Source: Candidatus Limosilactobacillus intestinigallinarum
Lineage (GTDB): Bacteria; Bacillota; Bacilli; Lactobacillales; Lactobacillaceae
Assembly: GCA_019117285.1 (NCBI GenBank)
Contig: DXAA01000012.1
Location: 1 to 56,469, forward strand
Length of the DNA: 56,469 nt
Direction of reading: 5' to 3'
In this document: positions 14,082-30,991 of the stretch, piece after piece
Numbering within the stretch: position 1 is the first letter of the stretch
How the letters are laid out: every line of letters begins with the position of its first letter
Program-made: the position numbers and the translations under genes
Notes under the pieces: model-generated
The model's input: the letters and a program-made list of their open reading frames with translations, nothing else
The model's database searches: none
Told to the model about the DNA's origin: nothing

Positions 14082-15854
14082 ATGAATCGGCATCCTGATT
14101 ACCTGTTAAACGATGTGAACGAGCCGCGCGATATCAAGCAAATGTCGCTGAGCGAATTGAAGGAATTGGCCAAGGAGATGCGTCAGCTGGTCCTGGAGCG
14201 GGACGCCGCCATTGGTGGCCACGTTGGTCCCAATCTTGGGGTCATGGAGCTGACGATTGCCTACCACTACGTCTTCAACTCACCTCACGACAAGGTGGTC
14301 TGGGATGTTTCTCACCAGTCCTATGCGCACAAGATGCTGACGGGTCGCAAGCTGGGCTTCTTGGACCCTGACCACTATGAGGACATCACCGGTTACACCT
14401 CCCCCGAGGAGAGTGTCCACGACTTCTTCGAGATCGGGCACACCTCGACCTCGATCTCCCTGGCGGTCGGCCTGGCCCAGGCGCGGGACATGCTGCGGCC
14501 GGAAAAGCATAACAACGTTGTGGCCGTGATTGGGGATGGTTCGCTGAGCGGTGGTCTGGCCTTTGAAGGATTGAACAACGCCGCCAAGCTGCACTCCAAC
14601 CTGATCATCGTGGTCAACGACAATCAGATGGCTATCGATGCCGATCAGGGTGGCCTCTACAAGGGCCTCAAGGAGCTGCGCGACACCGATGGTAAGTCAG
14701 AAAACAACATTTTCAAGTTCATGGGGCTGGACTATCGTTACATCGCCGATGGCAACGACCTGCAGACGATGATCGACGCCTTCCGTGACGTCAAGGACAT
14801 CGACCACCCGATTGTCCTTCACGTCAACACCTTGAAGGGGAAGGGGTACGCGCCGGCCGAGGAACACAAGATGGAGTATCATTGGCGCGACCCATTTGAC
14901 CTCAAGACCGGGGAAGATAAGCAGCCAGCTGATAATGGCTACAACGATGCCGTGATGGCGGAGTTGGATCGTCAGGTTAATGCCGGGGCCCCAGTGGTGG
15001 CCATCAATGCCGCCATCCCCGGAGTCTTTGGCTTGAAGGATTTCCAGGCTAAGCACCCCGACCGCTACTTCGACGTCGGCATTGCTGAGCAGGATTCGAT
15101 CACGACGGCGGTGGCGATGGCCGCAGCCGGCGCCCGACCGGTCGTTTTCCAGAACAGTACCTTCCTGCAGCGGGCCTATGACCAGTTGATCCACGACATG
15201 GCCCTCAATGATGCCCCCGTGGTTATGATCGTGCGCGGTGGCACGATCGCCAGCGGTTCGGCTACCCACCAGGGTTCCTTTGACATCTCGATGATCAGTG
15301 ACCTGCCGAACATCGAGTACCTGGCCCCAACCAACGTCGAAGAGATGATCTCGATGTTGCGGTGGGCGATCAAGCAGACCGACCAGCCGGTGGTCATCCG
15401 CCAGCCGGAAAAGGCCCTGCTGCATGGTCACCCGAGTCAGGACGACTACAGCACCATCAACTACGACGTCGTCCATCACGGGAGCGAGGTTGCCATCATG
15501 GCTGTCGGGGACTTCTGGCAGCTCGGCGAGGAGGTCTGCGAGCAACTGAAGAAGAAGCTCAACATCGATGCTACCCTGATCAACCCGAAGTCAGTCACCG
15601 GGATCGACCAGCATGACCTTCACCACCTGGCCGAGAACCACGACGTCGTGGTCACCCTGGAGGACGGCAATTTGAGCGGGGGCTTCGGTGAGACGATTGC
15701 TCGCTACTATGGGCCGACCGACATGAAGGTCCTCAACTTTGGGGCGCCACGAGAGTTTGCCGACAACGTGCCGCTTGACGTTATGTATGAATGGTACCAC
15801 CTGACGCCAAAACAGATCGTTGATGATATCGAAAAGGTTATTCATTCACTTTAA
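14082..15854 (+). CDS. dxs: 1-deoxy-D-xylulose-5-phosphate synthase
   Basis: 590-residue thiamine-diphosphate enzyme that joins pyruvate and glyceraldehyde-3-phosphate. Features: GGHVGPNLGVMELTIAYHYVF (His), the WDVSHQSYAHKMLTGR segment, the ThDP/Mg motif GDGSLSGGLAFEGLNNA...VVNDN, then a pyrimidine-binding domain (VGIAEQDSITTAVAMAAAG with the key Glu) and a transketolase C-terminal domain. Its 590 residues are slightly short for Dxs (about 620). No other methylerythritol-phosphate gene is nearby, and lactobacilli normally use mevalonate, so DXP may instead feed thiamine or pyridoxal synthesis, or the substrate may differ. Ribosome site AAAGGAGTGG lies upstream. Confidence 0.86.
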   Translation: MNRHPDYLLNDVNEPRDIKQMSLSELKELAKEMRQLVLERDAAIGGHVGPNLGVMELTIAYHYVFNSPHDKVVWDVSHQSYAHKMLTGRKLGFLDPDHYEDITGYTSPEESVHDFFEIGHTSTSISLAVGLAQARDMLRPEKHNNVVAVIGDGSLSGGLAFEGLNNAAKLHSNLIIVVNDNQMAIDADQGGLYKGLKELRDTDGKSENNIFKFMGLDYRYIADGNDLQTMIDAFRDVKDIDHPIVLHVNTLKGKGYAPAEEHKMEYHWRDPFDLKTGEDKQPADNGYNDAVMAELDRQVNAGAPVVAINAAIPGVFGLKDFQAKHPDRYFDVGIAEQDSITTAVAMAAAGARPVVFQNSTFLQRAYDQLIHDMALNDAPVVMIVRGGTIASGSATHQGSFDISMISDLPNIEYLAPTNVEEMISMLRWAIKQTDQPVVIRQPEKALLHGHPSQDDYSTINYDVVHHGSEVAIMAVGDFWQLGEEVCEQLKKKLNIDATLINPKSVTGIDQHDLHHLAENHDVVVTLEDGNLSGGFGETIARYYGPTDMKVLNFGAPREFADNVPLDVMYEWYHLTPKQIVDDIEKVIHSL

Positions 15855-16082: not shown

Positions 16083-16154
16083 TGGAAATTTCGCGCATTT
16101 TCTCCTGATGGCCGTATATATCTAGTGAAGGTCAAAAATAAAGGAGAATGCAAA

Positions 16155-19100
16155 ATGAACCAGAAATTATCACATCACGTTTACCGGTCCTCTCTGATCG
16201 GGTTGCTCTCAACCTCAGTCCTGCTCACCATGGCGGTCGGCGGGGCCACCGCCGCGTCGCATCCTCAGCAGGCGGCTGCCTCGTCGTCAACGGTGGCGCG
16301 GCATGATCCCCACGGTCAATTGACCACCAAGGAGGTCGTGCGGACGATCAGCTATGTTGATCCCCTGACCAAACAGAAACATACCATTCGCCAGGTGGCA
16401 CGTTACCAGTTCGATCGTAAGGGCCAGCTGGTCAAGAGTAGTAATCAGGTCTGGCCGGCCTACTTTGCCCCGGTCTTTGCGGGGTATGCCCCCAACTGGG
16501 TTGAGATTCCACCCAAGCTTACCAGTCCGGGTGCGGGTCCCAAAAATGAAATAATCACCTACACCAAACTACCTGAACGGCTCGCCGCTTCCACTGCCAA
16601 GGTGATGTTTACAACCGTGGACGGAAAAGTTATAGACTGGCAATTCCCGTCAGTTGTGGACGCTGCCGGCCAAACGCTGGCTACGTTTAACCTACCGACA
16701 CCACCGGCTGGTTGGGAATACGTAAATGGCGCCCAACTGCCAACGACACTCCGGATAACCCCAGGGACAGCGAACGCCTTTACCTTCCTTATCCAGAAGA
16801 AGGCCGCCCAGCACGAAAGTAAGCCATTCAGCAAGCCGAAGATTAAGCAGGAGACAAAGCAACTCTTGCGAAAAATTGTGCTGCACCTGCCGGCTGGCGA
16901 CCAGATCGTCACGCAACACGCCACGGCGACGCGCCGGGTCACCGTCAAGGACGGGAAGACGACCTATGGCAAATGGCAAATTAGCCCCTTTGATGAGCTG
17001 CAGCTAGCCCCGATGGCGGGTTATCAAACCTCGACCGATCGGATTGCGGCCCTGTGCCTGACCCCGGAGCAGCTCGACCAGGAGTTACCGACAATCGAGG
17101 TTCAGTATCATAAGCTGACGAGTGACGAGGGAACGAATACGTCGACCACCAGCGATGCCGCAACCATGACCGATCCCATTCCGATGACGGATGCGGGCAG
17201 CCAAACCACTAGCAGCGACAAGGATGAAGGCAGTCAGACGCCAGCTCCGGCAACCAGTGCGGATGGTACCCAGACCGACGCGGTTACCGGCGTGGATGCG
17301 GACACACAGACCGCAGTCAGCGATAAGGACGAAGAAAACCAAACTGACGTGGTCGCCGGTAAGGATAAGGGTACCCAGACGGATCCGGTCGCTGGGCATG
17401 ACGCCAGCAGCCAGACGGAAAATACCGGTAAAGACGCGGGCAGCCAAACGGATGCTCCCGCAACGAGTGACAGTAGTACTCAAACGGACCTAAGCAAGGA
17501 TGCAGGCAACCAAACCGATACACCGACAACCAGCGAGGGCGGTACGCAAACTGATGTCGCGGCTGGTAAGGACGAGGGGAGTCAGACCACAACCCCTGAA
17601 ACGACTGTCGAAGGGACCCAAACAGACCTGAACCAGGATGTGGGCAGCCAAACCGATACACCGACAACTAGCGAGGGCAGTACCCAAACTGACGTAGTCA
17701 CCGGTCAGGATGCCAATACCCAGACCGACGCCAACAATCAGGATGCAGGTACCCAGACATCTACGCCAACGACCAGTGAAGGCAGCACGCAGACGGATGT
17801 CGTTACCAACCAGGACACGAGTACCCAGACGACTACCAGCAGTCAGGACGCCGGTAGCCAGACCGACAATCCGACTGACCAAGACACCGGTACGCAAACT
17901 ACGGATCCGGCAATGGGCACGATAAGCACCCAGACTGATACAACCAATAACGCGGATGCGGGTACACAAACCGCACAGCCACACGTGACGACTACCGGCA
18001 GCCAAACCGCTGAAGTACCAACGGTTGATACGGGGGTTGGCGACAATTCAGTGGCCGACACTGATCGGAGCACCCAGACGGACAACGTCACTACCGTTGA
18101 TAGCGGAGTCGGCGATGACCGCGTCGCTGGGGTTGACCAGGAGACGCAAACCCGCCAGGAACCACTGGCTGACGCTGGGGTCGGTAATGATGACATTGGT
18201 CAGGTTGATCAGGCATCCCAGACGGATCAAGCATCAACGGTCAGTACGGGCAGTGGTGCGGGAACAGCTGCTGAGACCGACCACGGCACTCAAACGGACC
18301 CTTCACACACGGTTAGCGTGGCGGTCGGGGATGATCCCGTTAGCACCGTCGACCAGGCAACTCAGACCGACACCCCAACTACCGTGGCCACGGGGACCGG
18401 TGATGGAGCAGTAACGGTGATCGGTCAAGCAACCCAGACCGCATCGTCGACCGATGCAACCACAGTTGACCGGGTCAGCCAGGGGACTCAGACGACGCTG
18501 GAGCCAATGACTGATGACGGACATCAGGTTACCAGCACCGATCGGGGGACGCAGACCGATGAGACGATTGCGCCGGATAACATTGATGATCATCATAACA
18601 AGGGCGTCGACCAGGGAACGCAAACGGAACTGACAACGTCCCCCACGGCGGTTGCCCCCGGTCTTGCCAGCGCTGAATCAAGTACCCAGACACCTGCGCC
18701 CCTAATGGTCGACACTGGGGTCGGGGACGACACAATTGGAGAAGCAACTCCATCGACCACGGTCAGTCAGGATACCCCATCAGGGATGGTGACTAACGAT
18801 GAGCCAACCACACTGGCAGGAGCTAGCCCGACTGATAAGCCAGCTAACCACGGTGATCACGCCGGCCAACTGGTGGAGGAGCCTTCATTAATGAGTGACC
18901 ACCAAGCAACCGGGGGAGAAGAAGGTCGCCTGGCTGCACCGACGCCGGCCCCAACCACACTTAGAAATAATATCGATCCGGTGGCCTTTCATACCGAACT
19001 GGACCGCCTTCAGCAGCCATTGCGAAAGTTAGCTGCGCACCCCGGACCATCAGCAACTGCTGCCCGCCTTCCCCAGACGGGAAACGAACAGCTGGCTGGC

Positions 19101-19178
19101 GGATTCACCCTGGTGGGGCTCTTGACCAGCCTGCTGGCGGCCGGGGCGGCGAAGTTCAAGCTAAAGCGGCGCCCCTAG
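16155..19178 (+). CDS. LPQTG-anchored, Asp/Thr/Gln-repeat surface protein
   Basis: 1007 residues exported and sortase-linked to the wall. The signal peptide is residues 1-35 (SLIGLLSTSVLLTMAVGGATA, cleavage after about AAS). An N-terminal globular part (about 40-335) includes strands such as VVRTISYVDPLTKQKHTIRQVARY, reminiscent of mucin-binding-type modules, but I cannot assign it. Residues about 345-850 are acidic repeats centred on (T/S/N)QT. A linker rich in Pro, Thr and His follows, then LPQTG, a hydrophobic segment and KLKRRP tail. The start at 16155 has AAAGGAG nine bases upstream. Probable adhesin or wall stalk; ligand unknown. Confidence 0.85.
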   Translation: MNQKLSHHVYRSSLIGLLSTSVLLTMAVGGATAASHPQQAAASSSTVARHDPHGQLTTKEVVRTISYVDPLTKQKHTIRQVARYQFDRKGQLVKSSNQVWPAYFAPVFAGYAPNWVEIPPKLTSPGAGPKNEIITYTKLPERLAASTAKVMFTTVDGKVIDWQFPSVVDAAGQTLATFNLPTPPAGWEYVNGAQLPTTLRITPGTANAFTFLIQKKAAQHESKPFSKPKIKQETKQLLRKIVLHLPAGDQIVTQHATATRRVTVKDGKTTYGKWQISPFDELQLAPMAGYQTSTDRIAALCLTPEQLDQELPTIEVQYHKLTSDEGTNTSTTSDAATMTDPIPMTDAGSQTTSSDKDEGSQTPAPATSADGTQTDAVTGVDADTQTAVSDKDEENQTDVVAGKDKGTQTDPVAGHDASSQTENTGKDAGSQTDAPATSDSSTQTDLSKDAGNQTDTPTTSEGGTQTDVAAGKDEGSQTTTPETTVEGTQTDLNQDVGSQTDTPTTSEGSTQTDVVTGQDANTQTDANNQDAGTQTSTPTTSEGSTQTDVVTNQDTSTQTTTSSQDAGSQTDNPTDQDTGTQTTDPAMGTISTQTDTTNNADAGTQTAQPHVTTTGSQTAEVPTVDTGVGDNSVADTDRSTQTDNVTTVDSGVGDDRVAGVDQETQTRQEPLADAGVGNDDIGQVDQASQTDQASTVSTGSGAGTAAETDHGTQTDPSHTVSVAVGDDPVSTVDQATQTDTPTTVATGTGDGAVTVIGQATQTASSTDATTVDRVSQGTQTTLEPMTDDGHQVTSTDRGTQTDETIAPDNIDDHHNKGVDQGTQTELTTSPTAVAPGLASAESSTQTPAPLMVDTGVGDDTIGEATPSTTVSQDTPSGMVTNDEPTTLAGASPTDKPANHGDHAGQLVEEPSLMSDHQATGGEEGRLAAPTPAPTTLRNNIDPVAFHTELDRLQQPLRKLAAHPGPSATAARLPQTGNEQLAGGFTLVGLLTSLLAAGAAKFKLKRRP
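17190..18710 (+). repeat. About 34 tandem QT-centred repeats in the surface protein gene
   Basis: Two repeat classes are visible in translation. The first half has units of 12-14 residues of the form DAGSQTDxPTTSEGSTQTDV. The second half alternates DTGVGDDxVxxVD with xxTQTD, giving a period of about 24-25 residues. Codon choice varies between units (CAG/CAA, ACC/ACG), so the array is old or under protein-level selection rather than freshly amplified. Confidence 0.85.
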
Positions 19179-19313
19179 TCAGATTCGGTGAGAATAAAGA
19201 CGTTGGTGGTACTGAAAATTGCCATGATGGTGAAATGCAAAGTAGCAATCCTACCCGTTTGTCAAGATTCCGCTCATCACTTTATAAAACAAAAGAGAAA
19301 TTTAAACTTTTCC
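19179..19313. other. Intergenic region upstream of the attenuator
   Basis: No gene, hairpin or repeat that I can support; AT content rises toward the promoter at 19314. Confidence 0.5.
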
Positions 19314-19342
19314 TTGCAATTTTAATTTTCTAATAGTATTCT
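19314..19342 (+). promoter_or_regulatory. Promoter of the leader-peptide/permease transcript
   Basis: TTGCAA (19314-19319), 17-base spacer, TATTCT (19337-19342). It lies about 40 bases before the leader-peptide start. Confidence 0.6.
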
Positions 19343-19380
19343 AATAACAACGAAAGAAAAGGGAATTGGAGGAATGCAAC

Positions 19381-19464
19381 ATGCAATTACAATTTAAAGC
19401 GATTATTCATCAACTAACCTCCACCTCAACCACAACAACAAGCATCGTGGTTGAGCACCTTTAA
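19381..19464 (+). CDS. Thr/Ser-rich leader peptide (27 residues)
   Basis: ATG at 19381 is preceded at eight bases by GGAGG (19368-19372). The peptide is MQLQFKAIIHQL, then TSTSTTTTS, then IVVEHL and a TAA stop. Codons 13-21 are nine Thr or Ser codons in a row (ACC TCC ACC TCA ACC ACA ACA ACA AGC). A peptide this short, this biased, with a strong ribosome site and overlapping RNA hairpins is the hallmark of translation-coupled attenuation as in trp, thr and his operons. The role is inferred; the sequence features are direct. Confidence 0.78.
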   Translation: MQLQFKAIIHQLTSTSTTTTSIVVEHL

Positions 19465-19564
19465 TATACTTAAACAAGATATTAATCGAAGCTATCCAAA
19501 GCGACTCAACCACTAACCTGATCCTGGTTTTCCTGGTTGCTGGTCGCATTGGGTAGCTTTTTTC
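19425..19564 (+). promoter_or_regulatory. Attenuator with alternative hairpins
   Basis: Segment A, CTCAACCAC (19425-19433), lies inside the Thr/Ser codons. Segment B, GTGGTTGAG (19447-19455), is its exact complement. Segment C, CTCAACCAC (19505-19513), is an exact copy of A and forms part of the 5' arm of the terminator. With free translation A is covered or pairs with B and the terminator can fold. With ribosomes stalled on Thr or Ser codons, A is masked, B can pair with C, and the terminator is broken. This predicts permease expression when charged Thr or Ser tRNA is scarce. Confidence 0.75.
19491..19564 (+). terminator. Attenuation terminator upstream of the permease
   Basis: GCTATCCAA (19491-19499) pairs with TTGGGTAGC (19549-19557), GCGAC (19501-19505) with GTCGC (19543-19547), and CAACCA (19507-19512) with TGGTTG (19534-19539), followed by TTTTTT. 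It ends only about 25 bases before the permease start, as expected of a regulatory terminator. Confidence 0.8.
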
Positions 19565-19587
19565 GTATCAAGAAATGGGGTTATGAG

Positions 19588-20970
19588 ATGGATAATCAAA
19601 AGAAAGTGAAATTAAATCGGACGATGACGCCGGGACAGATGGAGATGATCGCCATCGGGGGGACCATTGGGAGTGGGCTCTTCATGGGGGCCACCTCAAC
19701 CATCAAGTGGACCGGGCCATCGGTACTGCTGGCCTACGCCTTCGTCGGCCTGGTCCTGTACGGGGTCATGCGGGCCCTAGGAGAACTGATCTACATCAGC
19801 CCCGGGACCGGTTCGTTTGCGGACTACGGGTCGAAGTACATTCACCCCCTGGCCGGCTACCTGACCAAGTGGAGCAACGTCTTCCAGTTCATCATCGTCG
19901 GCATCTCGGATATCATCGCGATGAGTCAGTACCTGAACTACTGGTGGCCGAACCTGCCGGACTGGATCTCGGGCCTGGTCATGATCACGATCCTGACCCT
20001 GGCCAACCTGGCCTCGGCCAAGGCCTATGGGCGCCTGGAATTCTGGTTTGCCATGATCAAGGTGGTCACGATCATCGCCATGATCATCCTCGGGCTGCTG
20101 GTCATCGTCCTCGGGCTCGGTAACAACTGGCACCCAGTCGGGATCTCCAACCTCTGGACGCACGGTGGCTTCTTCACCGGTGGCTTTATGGGCTTCATGT
20201 TCTCCCTATCCGTGATCGCCGGTTCCTACCAGGGAATTGAGCTGCTCGGGATCACGGCGGGGGAGGCCGCATCACCACGCCATGCCATCGTCAAGTCGGT
20301 TAAGTCCGTCATCTGGCGGATCCTGATCTTCTACATCGGGGCCATCTTTGTGATCGTTTCGATCTACCCATGGGACGAACTCAAGGCGGTTGGTTCACCG
20401 TTCGTCGAAACCTTCACCAAGGTCGGCATCACCGGGGCGGCCGGGATCATTAACTTCGTCGTCCTGACGGCGGCCCTGTCCGGCGCCAACTCCGGGATCT
20501 ACAGTGCCAGCCGGATGCTCTTCAAGCTTTCCGTCGACGGCGAGGTGCCCAAGGTCTTCAGCAAGCTCTCCAAGCGGGTGGTACCAAACGTTGCCATCCT
20601 GACGATTGCCTTCTGGATCTTCCTCGGCTTTGCGATCAACATGCTGCTGTCGATGTTCAGTGCCAGCGCCAAGAACATCTTCGTGATCGTCTACAGTTCC
20701 AGTGTCCTGCCGGGGATGGTGCCGTGGTTTATCATCCTGCTATCCGAGCTGAACTTCCGGAAGAACAACCCGGACCAGCTGGTCAATCACCCCTTCAAGA
20801 TGCCATTCTACCCGGCATACAACTACTTCAGCCTGATCGCCTTGACGGTCATCCTGATCTTCATGTTCTTCAACCCCGACACCCGGGTTTCCGTTTCGGT
20901 CGGTGTGGTCTTCCTGGTCATCATGACCTTGATCTACAAGTTCCACACCGCCCCCAAACTACAAAAATAA
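19588..20970 (+). CDS. APC-superfamily amino acid permease, probably Ser/Thr
   Basis: About 460 residues with 12 predicted membrane helices. The first helix carries the AAT-family signature MTPGQMEMIAIGGTIGSGLFMG, followed by GPSVLLAYAFVGLVLYGVMRALGEL. The C-terminal part (LVNHPFKMPFYPAYNY) is also typical of the lysine/GABA/serine permease group. These are proton-coupled importers in the cytoplasmic membrane. Substrate cannot be read from the protein, but the Thr/Ser leader peptide directly upstream points to serine and threonine, as for lactococcal SerP proteins. Start at ATG 19588 is the family start; only a weak GGGG ribosome site precedes it. Confidence 0.85.
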   Translation: MDNQKKVKLNRTMTPGQMEMIAIGGTIGSGLFMGATSTIKWTGPSVLLAYAFVGLVLYGVMRALGELIYISPGTGSFADYGSKYIHPLAGYLTKWSNVFQFIIVGISDIIAMSQYLNYWWPNLPDWISGLVMITILTLANLASAKAYGRLEFWFAMIKVVTIIAMIILGLLVIVLGLGNNWHPVGISNLWTHGGFFTGGFMGFMFSLSVIAGSYQGIELLGITAGEAASPRHAIVKSVKSVIWRILIFYIGAIFVIVSIYPWDELKAVGSPFVETFTKVGITGAAGIINFVVLTAALSGANSGIYSASRMLFKLSVDGEVPKVFSKLSKRVVPNVAILTIAFWIFLGFAINMLLSMFSASAKNIFVIVYSSSVLPGMVPWFIILLSELNFRKNNPDQLVNHPFKMPFYPAYNYFSLIALTVILIFMFFNPDTRVSVSVGVVFLVIMTLIYKFHTAPKLQK

Positions 20971-23057: not shown

Positions 23058-24393
23058 CTAGCCCACGGCGTTTAATCCTTGATGCAAGATATTAACTGCC
23101 GCATTAATATCCCGATCGTGATGGGTACCACAGTTTGGGCACGTCCATTCACGAATTTGTAACGGTTTTGGTCCACTATGGTAACCACAGTAGCTACAAA
23201 TTTGGCTAGTATAGTTTGGTTTAACTACCACCAAACGTTTACCATACCAGGTACATTTATATGCCAACATGGTCCGGAATTGATACCAGCTGGCATTCGC
23301 AATGGCTTTAGCTAGGCAATGATTTTTCTGAAGATTCTTGGCTTTCAAATCCTCAATGACGATTACGTCGTACTGCCTAACCAAGGCCGTTGTCAGTTTA
23401 TGCAAATAATCTTTCCGTTGGTTCGCTACCTTTGCCTGATAGCGGGCCTTTTGTTGTTGGGCTCGTTGCCAGTTTTGGTAATTGCTCAATTCTTTCTTCA
23501 TGGTCTTGTGATTATGGTTCCGTTGACGGACGGCAACCGTCGCTTGATGTTTTCGCTTGGCATACTTGCTTTGCCACTTTGTTACTTGTTTTTCAGCCCA
23601 TTTAGCGTTAAAGGTTCCATATTTAATACCATCAGAACTAATGGCTAGATCGGTAATTCCAACATCAATTCCGATTGCTTTTCCCGTCTTCCTTAAATGG
23701 TTGGGAGCCTCAAATGCTACTTGTAATGATAGATAGTAGTGACCAGTGGGCACAAGGCAAACCGTATAGCACTTGATTTTGCCATTAGTTAACCGGGTCG
23801 TCTTACTAGTCCGAATGCTCCCTAGCTTAGGTAATCTCACTCGCCGCTTAGCAAGCACCCGACAAACCGACCGTCCCGTATAAGCCTGCCGATTGGAATG
23901 ACGTGATTTGAAGCGTGGATAGCCGCCTTGATGTTTAAAAAGCATTTTAAAAGCCTGGGCAAGATTATGATTAACCACCAAGAAACTAGTTGCGTCACTA
24001 GTCTTAAGAAATGGATATTCCTGCTTGAGCCGTTTCAGAAGATAATTCATGCCGTATTCATTGACGAAGTGACTGCTGGGATTGTTTTGATATCGTTCTT
24101 TGGCCATCGCCAACATCTGGTTCCAAACAAAGCGATCGTTGCCAAACATTTGCCGCAGCTGCTCTCTTTGCTGAGCATTGGGATATAGACGGAGCTTAAT
24201 ACCTTTTATAATCTGCACCATTTCCACCACCATTCCTTCATCAGCGGTCAGTCAACAAAGCAAATTAATATCTGAGTACCAATCTTTCTGTTAAGTAAAT
24301 TATATCATATCTTAAAACATACGTTCGACTAAAAGCTAAAAAACTAGGCAATTCATCACGCCCTTAAAAGAACGTGTTTCCTTGCCCATTTTC
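22939..24393 (-). mobile_element. tnpB-only IS200/IS605-type element, copy 1
   Basis: Compared with the copy at 49743-51198, similarity starts and stops at the same points, giving borders GAAAATGGG (left) and GTAGTTCAC (right) in element orientation. Each end holds a subterminal imperfect palindrome (near CACGTTCTTTTAAGGGCGTG on the left and CTCGGTCATTGATGGCCGAG on the right), as needed by Y1 transposases. There is no tnpA, so mobility would need a transposase in trans. Both copies are preceded by TTTTT. The two copies are in opposite orientation. Confidence 0.8.
23058..24221 (-). CDS. tnpB: RNA-guided endonuclease TnpB, copy 1
   Basis: About 387 residues. N-terminal OrfB_IS605 helix-turn-helix part ([19 protein letters not shown]), then a split RuvC nuclease: Asp in [14 protein letters not shown], Glu in [12 protein letters not shown] and Asp in [14 protein letters not shown] zinc ribbon (CSYCGYHSG...CPNCG) sits before the third motif. 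All catalytic residues are present, so it should be active. It differs from copy 2 at a few dozen residues spread along the protein, meaning the two are not a recent duplication of one copy. ATG 24221 is preferred over 24233, because GGTGG is suitably spaced. Confidence 0.88.
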
Positions 24394-30789: not shown

Positions 30790-30809
30790 TTAAGAAAATT
30801 AAATAAAAT

Positions 30810-30944
30810 TTCTTCGGGGCAGGGTGAAATTCCCAACCGACGGTGACAAGTGCAGCTTGAAGTCCGTGACCCGTTGATTACCATAATCAACGGTTGAACC
30901 AGTGGAAGTCTGGTACCGACAGTATAGTCTGGATGGGAGAAGAA
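30810..30944 (+). promoter_or_regulatory. FMN riboswitch (RFN element)
   Basis: Conserved RFN segments are all visible: TTCGGGGCAGGGTGAAATTC, CCGACGGTGAC, the variable stem CGTTGATTACCATAATCAACG, GAACCAGTGGAAGTCTGGT, ACCGACAGTATAGTCTGGAT and closing GGGAGAAGA. Binding of FMN is known to favour termination or hide the ribosome site in riboflavin operons. A short hairpin (ACGGTA..TACCGT, 30951-30972) follows and may take part in the switch. Confidence 0.95.
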
Positions 30945-30991
30945 ATAAAAAACGGTAGTGTCATATTACCGTCAGTGGATTTAAATATCGG

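Follow-up and report, generated by a model that had tools for sequence, protein, structure and literature searches.

The window analysed here is a stretch of 56,469 nts from a contig of Candidatus Limosilactobacillus intestinigallinarum, whose assembly amounts to 1.22 Mb and is 67% complete. It carries an amino acid permease gene preceded by a short leader frame and a terminator (Table 1). The permease matched PF00324 with 345 bits (gathering score 24.6) and is 98% identical to a permease of Limosilactobacillus pontis. The initial annotation had called it 'SerP-type', a label for which we found no support: the best named NCBIfam model is ThrP (NF047867), matched with 552 bits and hence below its curated cut-off of 850. 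Further upstream on the + strand are a 1-deoxy-D-xylulose-5-phosphate synthase-like gene (14082–15854, PF13292; the mevalonate route is usual in lactobacilli) and a gene whose 1017-residue product has numerous TQTD-like repeats, an LPQTG-type end and no Pfam match at 1e-5 (16125–19178).

Table 1. Features of the permease leader region, in window coordinates
Feature	Positions	Strand	Basis
Possible promoter TTGCAA-17-TATTCT	19314–19342	+	by eye; weak
Shine-Dalgarno GGAGG of leader peptide	19368–19372	+	letters; comparable motif in related leaders
Leader peptide, 27 codons (ATG 19381, TAA 19462–19464), Thr/Ser run at codons 13–21	19381–19464	+	translation, comparison
Segment A, within Thr/Ser codons; partner B	19425–19433	+	complementarity, comparison
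Segment B; partner A or C	19447–19455	+	complementarity, comparison
Segment C, inner portion of terminator 5′ arm; partner B or D	19505–19513	+	complementarity, comparison
Intrinsic terminator hairpin (C:D) with TTTTTT (19558–19563)	19488–19563	+	folding, −37 kcal/mol, z −7.4
Amino acid permease (ATG 19588), 460 aa, best NCBIfam model ThrP	19588–20970	+	model searches

The leader frame, translated as MQLQFKAIIHQLTSTSTTTTSIVVEHL, contains nine Thr/Ser codons in an unbroken row, three of them Ser, and its Shine-Dalgarno motif lies 8 nts upstream of the ATG. The 9-mer CTCAACCAC occurs twice, exactly, as segments A and C, with GTGGTTGAG, segment B, between both copies; the permease start codon lies downstream of the TTTTTT. 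Frame, ribosome site, Thr/Ser run, 9-mers and terminator, all described in the initial annotation, were each recovered in place, exact to the base. Such an A-B-A arrangement appeared in only one among 2000 dinucleotide shuffles of 19314–19590, and it is unique on both strands of the window (B at most 60 nts from A, second A at most 100 nts from B). Similarly, the A:B pattern matched once in the window versus never in 100 window shuffles. The nine-codon run was the longest found in 2217 start-to-stop frames of 10–40 codons on both strands (1033 and 1184 respectively, nested starts counted). Upstream, a loose form of the promoter was seen before 30 of 43 leaders, 28 of them similar in sequence and place, and missing in the other 13; the same form occurs five times on the + strand of the window and once on the − strand. 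A simple consensus scan detected neither a sigma-70-like site on the + strand nor, under a narrow rule (loop of 3–8 nts), a terminator.

We then considered folding. The terminator hairpin (19488–19560) was equalled by none of 200 shuffles. The longer segment 19423–19567, in which A:B and C:D coexisted, had a folding energy of −53.4 kcal/mol (z −8.2); the stretch from B to C folded by itself into the B:C form (−18.4 kcal/mol, z −5.1), with a 10-pair A+U-rich hairpin between B and C. Compared with C:D, the B:C pairing has much lower stability, so a switch between them would have to be kinetic.

To compare the leader among relatives, we searched named genomes with short peptide patterns taken from the window permease and obtained 60 related loci. 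This sample is uneven, and one locus cut off upstream (L045) was left out, giving 59 relatives. A leader was scored when at least five Thr/Ser fell within 10 codons together with a purine-rich ribosome-site motif. By this definition, 42 of the 59 permeases are preceded by a Thr/Ser-rich leader with its ribosome site, 149–222 nts ahead of the gene, and 10 by a T-box; neither was found in the remaining seven (L030, L050, L053, L057, L058, L059 and L065). On the other strand of three of these loci (L057–L059) a T-box was seen at 276–513. The 42 leaders comprise 34 from Limosilactobacillus or grouping with it in the permease tree, four from Ligilactobacillus, two from Pediococcus and one each from Weissella and Lentilactobacillus. 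In Limosilactobacillus caecicola (L030, 2364–2481) the B:C duplex and the terminator precede the permease with no recognisable leader frame, possibly a natural loss of the frame. Within the window's genome, a 69% identical paralogue of the permease (L002) showed no such leader by eye in the 350 nts upstream.

A second scan was made with a core pattern, ACCTCAACCAC followed after 9 to 25 bases by GGTTGRG. Within the family it gave one match in each of 42 genomes out of 397, spread over 6 of its 40 genera; the window's genus, represented by 23 genomes, contributed 15 of the 42. Used as control, the pattern in reverse matched none of the 397. The pattern is strict, and divergent leaders would escape it. 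Thirty of the 42 places were fetched, the window included: 27 carried the leader and, downstream, a permease of 69–100% identity, several of the 30 being probably the same species as in the 60-locus scan. The other three, all of one genus, carried neither. In an order-wide scan of 198 genomes, 26 from the family itself and 172 from elsewhere in the order, a single match was obtained in the 172, inside an unrelated reading frame, by its motif presumably a phosphoglycerate-mutase-type gene; the reversed control also gave one, i.e. chance level.

A:B, B:C and C:D exclude one another, and all three pairings were retained among relatives despite sequence change. Terminator and B:C duplex were present in all 44 sequences tested (the window, 42 relatives and leaderless L030), and in 42 of them B:C was better than after mononucleotide shuffling of the terminator arm (500 shuffles, p ≤ 0.05), L037 being not significant (p 0.448) and L018 borderline (0.058). 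We also exchanged partners between 19 representatives hand-picked from the 44: matched B:C averaged −15.5 kcal/mol versus −12.4 kcal/mol for swapped pairs, a difference that none of 20000 permutations equalled, by a statistic that ignores relatedness. The matched partner was the single best in one case only, ranking 1–8 in 18 of the 19 and 18th in L037, because the B segments resemble each other. Counting only pairs formed by the program, column −3 of B showed G-C in 25, C-G in 9 and T-A in one sequence; columns 4 and 6–9 likewise showed pair types differing on both sides. A:B changed in concert as well: CCACAACCAC instead of CCTCAACCAC in A goes with GTTGGGG instead of GTTGAG in B.

The leader frame is placed consistently with respect to these segments. 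In all 42 leaders measured (41 relatives and the window; L037 left out), the stop codon begins from −8 to +13 nts from the GG of B. A terminating ribosome, which covers the span from the stop codon over B, would thus sit on or beside B. In each of the 43 leaders, two or more Thr codons are found 16 nts or further upstream of B; hence B can be free to take C when a ribosome stalls there.

Taken together, these data make it highly probable that the ThrP-like permease is controlled by a ribosome-mediated transcription attenuator responding to threonine. The pairings and their positions were read from sequence and comparison; the ribosome steps and the response are modelled on the trp/thr attenuators, the source of the ribosome-stalling steps, and on Rli60 of Listeria monocytogenes (see below). 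When threonyl-tRNA is plentiful, the ribosome would reach the stop codon and cover B, C:D would form and transcription would end. When threonyl-tRNA is short, the ribosome would stall on the Thr codons and cover A, leaving B free to capture C, and RNA polymerase would read on into the permease gene. If the leader were not translated at all, A:B would form first and the terminator would stay on. Comparison of relatives thus favours the trp/thr-type reading of the initial annotation, the Thr/Ser run and the A-B-C complementarity being kept, not lost, across several genera, with L037, L018 and L030 among the exceptions.

Conservation of the run could also reflect a role of the peptide itself, as a nascent-chain arrest sequence or a small functional protein, with RNA pairing secondary. 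The run is indeed strongly conserved and of odd composition. Outside it, however, sequence and length differ between genera, synonymous Thr codons vary within the runs, and in one clade the C-terminal residues VVE(H/Y)L are what segment B encodes. We therefore regard a function of the peptide as extremely improbable. A terminator controlled by a riboswitch or a protein, with an incidental reading frame, would account for the hairpins of L030, retained there without a frame, and attenuators in general have alternative hairpins ahead of a gene. Yet no Rfam family matched the leader above chance: the search, Thr_leader and T-box (RF00230) included, gave nothing at or above gathering score, and the five sub-threshold matches within 19300–19600 all lie on the other strand and belong to unrelated families. 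Moreover, the related leaders retain the frame, the ribosome site and a stop that overlaps or adjoins B (the stop in 41 of 42 and in the window). Such a terminator is accordingly very improbable here.

The geometry of the terminator raises a further question for the proposed attenuator. The B region would pair with a portion of the terminator 5′ arm while D is still untranscribed. In the window leader, B:C blocks 9 of the 28 terminator pairs and 14 outer pairs stay free. Among 20 sequences hand-picked from the 44, one of them the leaderless L030, 0–4 outer pairs remain free in ten, and 9–15 in the other ten, which include the window. In principle, the outer stem could still form as a pseudoknot beside the U-run and terminate transcription. 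Half of the terminator pairs being free in the B:C form would fit a constitutive terminator or a relic, in which B:C cannot disrupt the outer stem and no switching takes place in the window's clade. B:C is nevertheless retained in this long-terminator clade too, and the 10-pair hairpin between B and C may hinder the pseudoknot; we consider a constitutive terminator or relic improbable. For a working attenuator, either kinetics or this hairpin blocks the outer stem, or the switch is leaky in the window's clade.

We next asked which amino acid is the signal. The runs of the 43 leaders contain 262 Thr versus 83 Ser codons; Thr codons outnumber Ser codons in 42 runs, with a tie in the remaining one. 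Each frame carries 3–10 Thr codons, ten being reached in L024 with the frame begun at an upstream TTG, and Thr/Ser runs of only 3–4 were found in L023, L025, L031 and L066. Among Thr codons of the runs, ACC (140) and ACA (95) dominate over ACT (25) and ACG (2). In five loci (L017, L025, L032, L035 and L048) the core Ser codon TCA is replaced by the Thr codon ACA and B reads GTTGGGG, A:B being retained with one bulged base; the five form one clade and thus probably represent one event.

The T-boxes of relatives bear on the same point. We read by eye ACU (Thr) at the specifier of all ten, eight from the covariance alignment and two (L044, L055) from identical flanking letters only; other frames, e.g. 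UAC, are possible from the letters. Read by eye in the same way, control T-boxes of the window's genome gave GTA for valS, AAC for asnA, CTC for leuS, TTC for pheS and ATC for ileS, these genes being named by NCBIfam, ileS from a fragment below cut-off.

Codons of the runs, the ThrP model and the ACU T-boxes thus make threonine a more likely signal of the predicted attenuator than threonine and serine equally. The initial annotation had proposed both: its threonine half is supported by these counts, while an equal part for serine is not. A leader that senses both about equally, either uncharged tRNA stalling the ribosome, would agree with the three Ser codons of the window's run, with the common use of TCA (39) and TCC (34) in the runs, and with E. 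coli ThrP/YifK, which takes up threonine and, to a lesser degree, serine according to PMC10070963. Against it stand the excess of Thr in nearly all runs, the Thr specifiers of the relatives and the position of TCA within segment A, where it is constrained by pairing with B and gives way to ACA in the five-locus clade. Equal sensing is therefore rather unlikely; threonine would be the main signal, with perhaps some serine sensing through the Ser codons of the run.

T-boxes bind tRNA directly, with no ribosome, and at the related permeases they share with the leader the proposed signal, threonyl-tRNA, and the kind of target gene, although the window leader itself has no T-box match. With the RF00230 covariance model, eight of them scored above and two below the gathering score. 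They occur at eight Liquorilactobacillus loci, in Periweissella and in Ligilactobacillus ubinensis; Thr leaders occur in Limosilactobacillus, other Ligilactobacillus, Pediococcus, Weissella and Lentilactobacillus. In a tree of the permeases, leader and T-box rows were split by a branch with 100/100 support and leaderless rows fell on both sides. Labels changed three times for the leader and three times for the T-box, versus means of 15.1 and 9.4 after shuffling. This tree includes two short rows, L065 and L066, whose translations end early at a stop, and long rows for L002, L066 and the outgroup. Instead of orthologues with swapped sensors, its two sides may represent ancient paralogues. We give an even chance to the combined proposal that related Thr permease genes in one family exchanged threonyl-tRNA sensors and that the long-terminator clade may antiterminate kinetically, blocking only the inner terminator. 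Two ways of sensing one charged tRNA at related genes would offer a natural comparison.

The predicted attenuator resembles several known systems. The thrL leader of enterobacteria (Rfam Thr_leader) likewise combines a Thr-rich leader peptide, alternative hairpins and a terminator before Thr genes. It carries Thr/Ile instead of Thr/Ser codons and precedes biosynthetic genes, whereas the window's target is a permease, and the window leader was not detected as Thr_leader. In a Firmicute, Staphylococcus aureus, sections of PMC5794164 describe attenuation of ilv-leu by a leucine-rich leader peptide; this operon is biosynthetic and responds to another amino acid, and it is likened here by mechanism, not by sequence. 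Rli60 of L. monocytogenes, a BCAA biosynthesis leader, also combines leader peptide, antiterminator and terminator, and in excerpts of PMC5864092 mutants of its start codon and ribosome site are super-attenuators with lower expression. That system is experimentally shown, unlike the window switch, which is predicted from sequence. Predicted leader-peptide attenuators for His are reported from bacilli and other Firmicutes in parts of PMC2965389 and PMC9413887; they precede hisS paralogues and his operons rather than Lactobacillaceae permeases. A passage of the former (2010) says that leader peptides replace T-boxes. A counterpart of the T-box alternative is described in PMC2494555, where a SteT-type Ser/Thr exchanger of the Bacillus cereus group has a Thr T-box ahead of its gene.

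Given these shown or predicted Leu, BCAA and His attenuators, the Thr leader joins a mechanism class already known in Firmicutes, which qualifies the novelty suggested by the initial annotation. For lactobacilli it may hold: in our literature search, covering titles and beginnings of abstracts with few subscription papers, the matches listed included no lactobacillus leader peptide of the Thr or Thr/Ser type. A term search in the accessible text of PMC8632094 found neither 'threonine' nor 'lactobacill'; PMC10219788, by its opening part, is a tool paper on conserved upstream frames. We consider the Thr leader attenuator well supported as an element, its switch function being predicted. As such, it would extend the few leader-peptide attenuators known from Firmicutes by a Thr-specific case that controls a permease; its hosts include probiotic and food lactobacilli, for which amino acid uptake is central. 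It also predicts a substrate, threonine, for a permease group that models name only by analogy.

Other regulatory elements were seen in the same genome. Fourteen T-box matches (L097–L110), eight of them above cut-off, include none at a Thr permease; one (L104) lies ahead of a gene like those of polar amino acid ABC transporter permeases. Another permease of the family, 36% identical to that of the window, is preceded by a lysine riboswitch (L004, 1204–1377). Finally, the window itself carries an IS605-type TnpB/OrfB gene on the − strand (23058–24233; PF07282, PF01385, PF12323) and an FMN riboswitch on the + strand (30806–30948, 122 bits).
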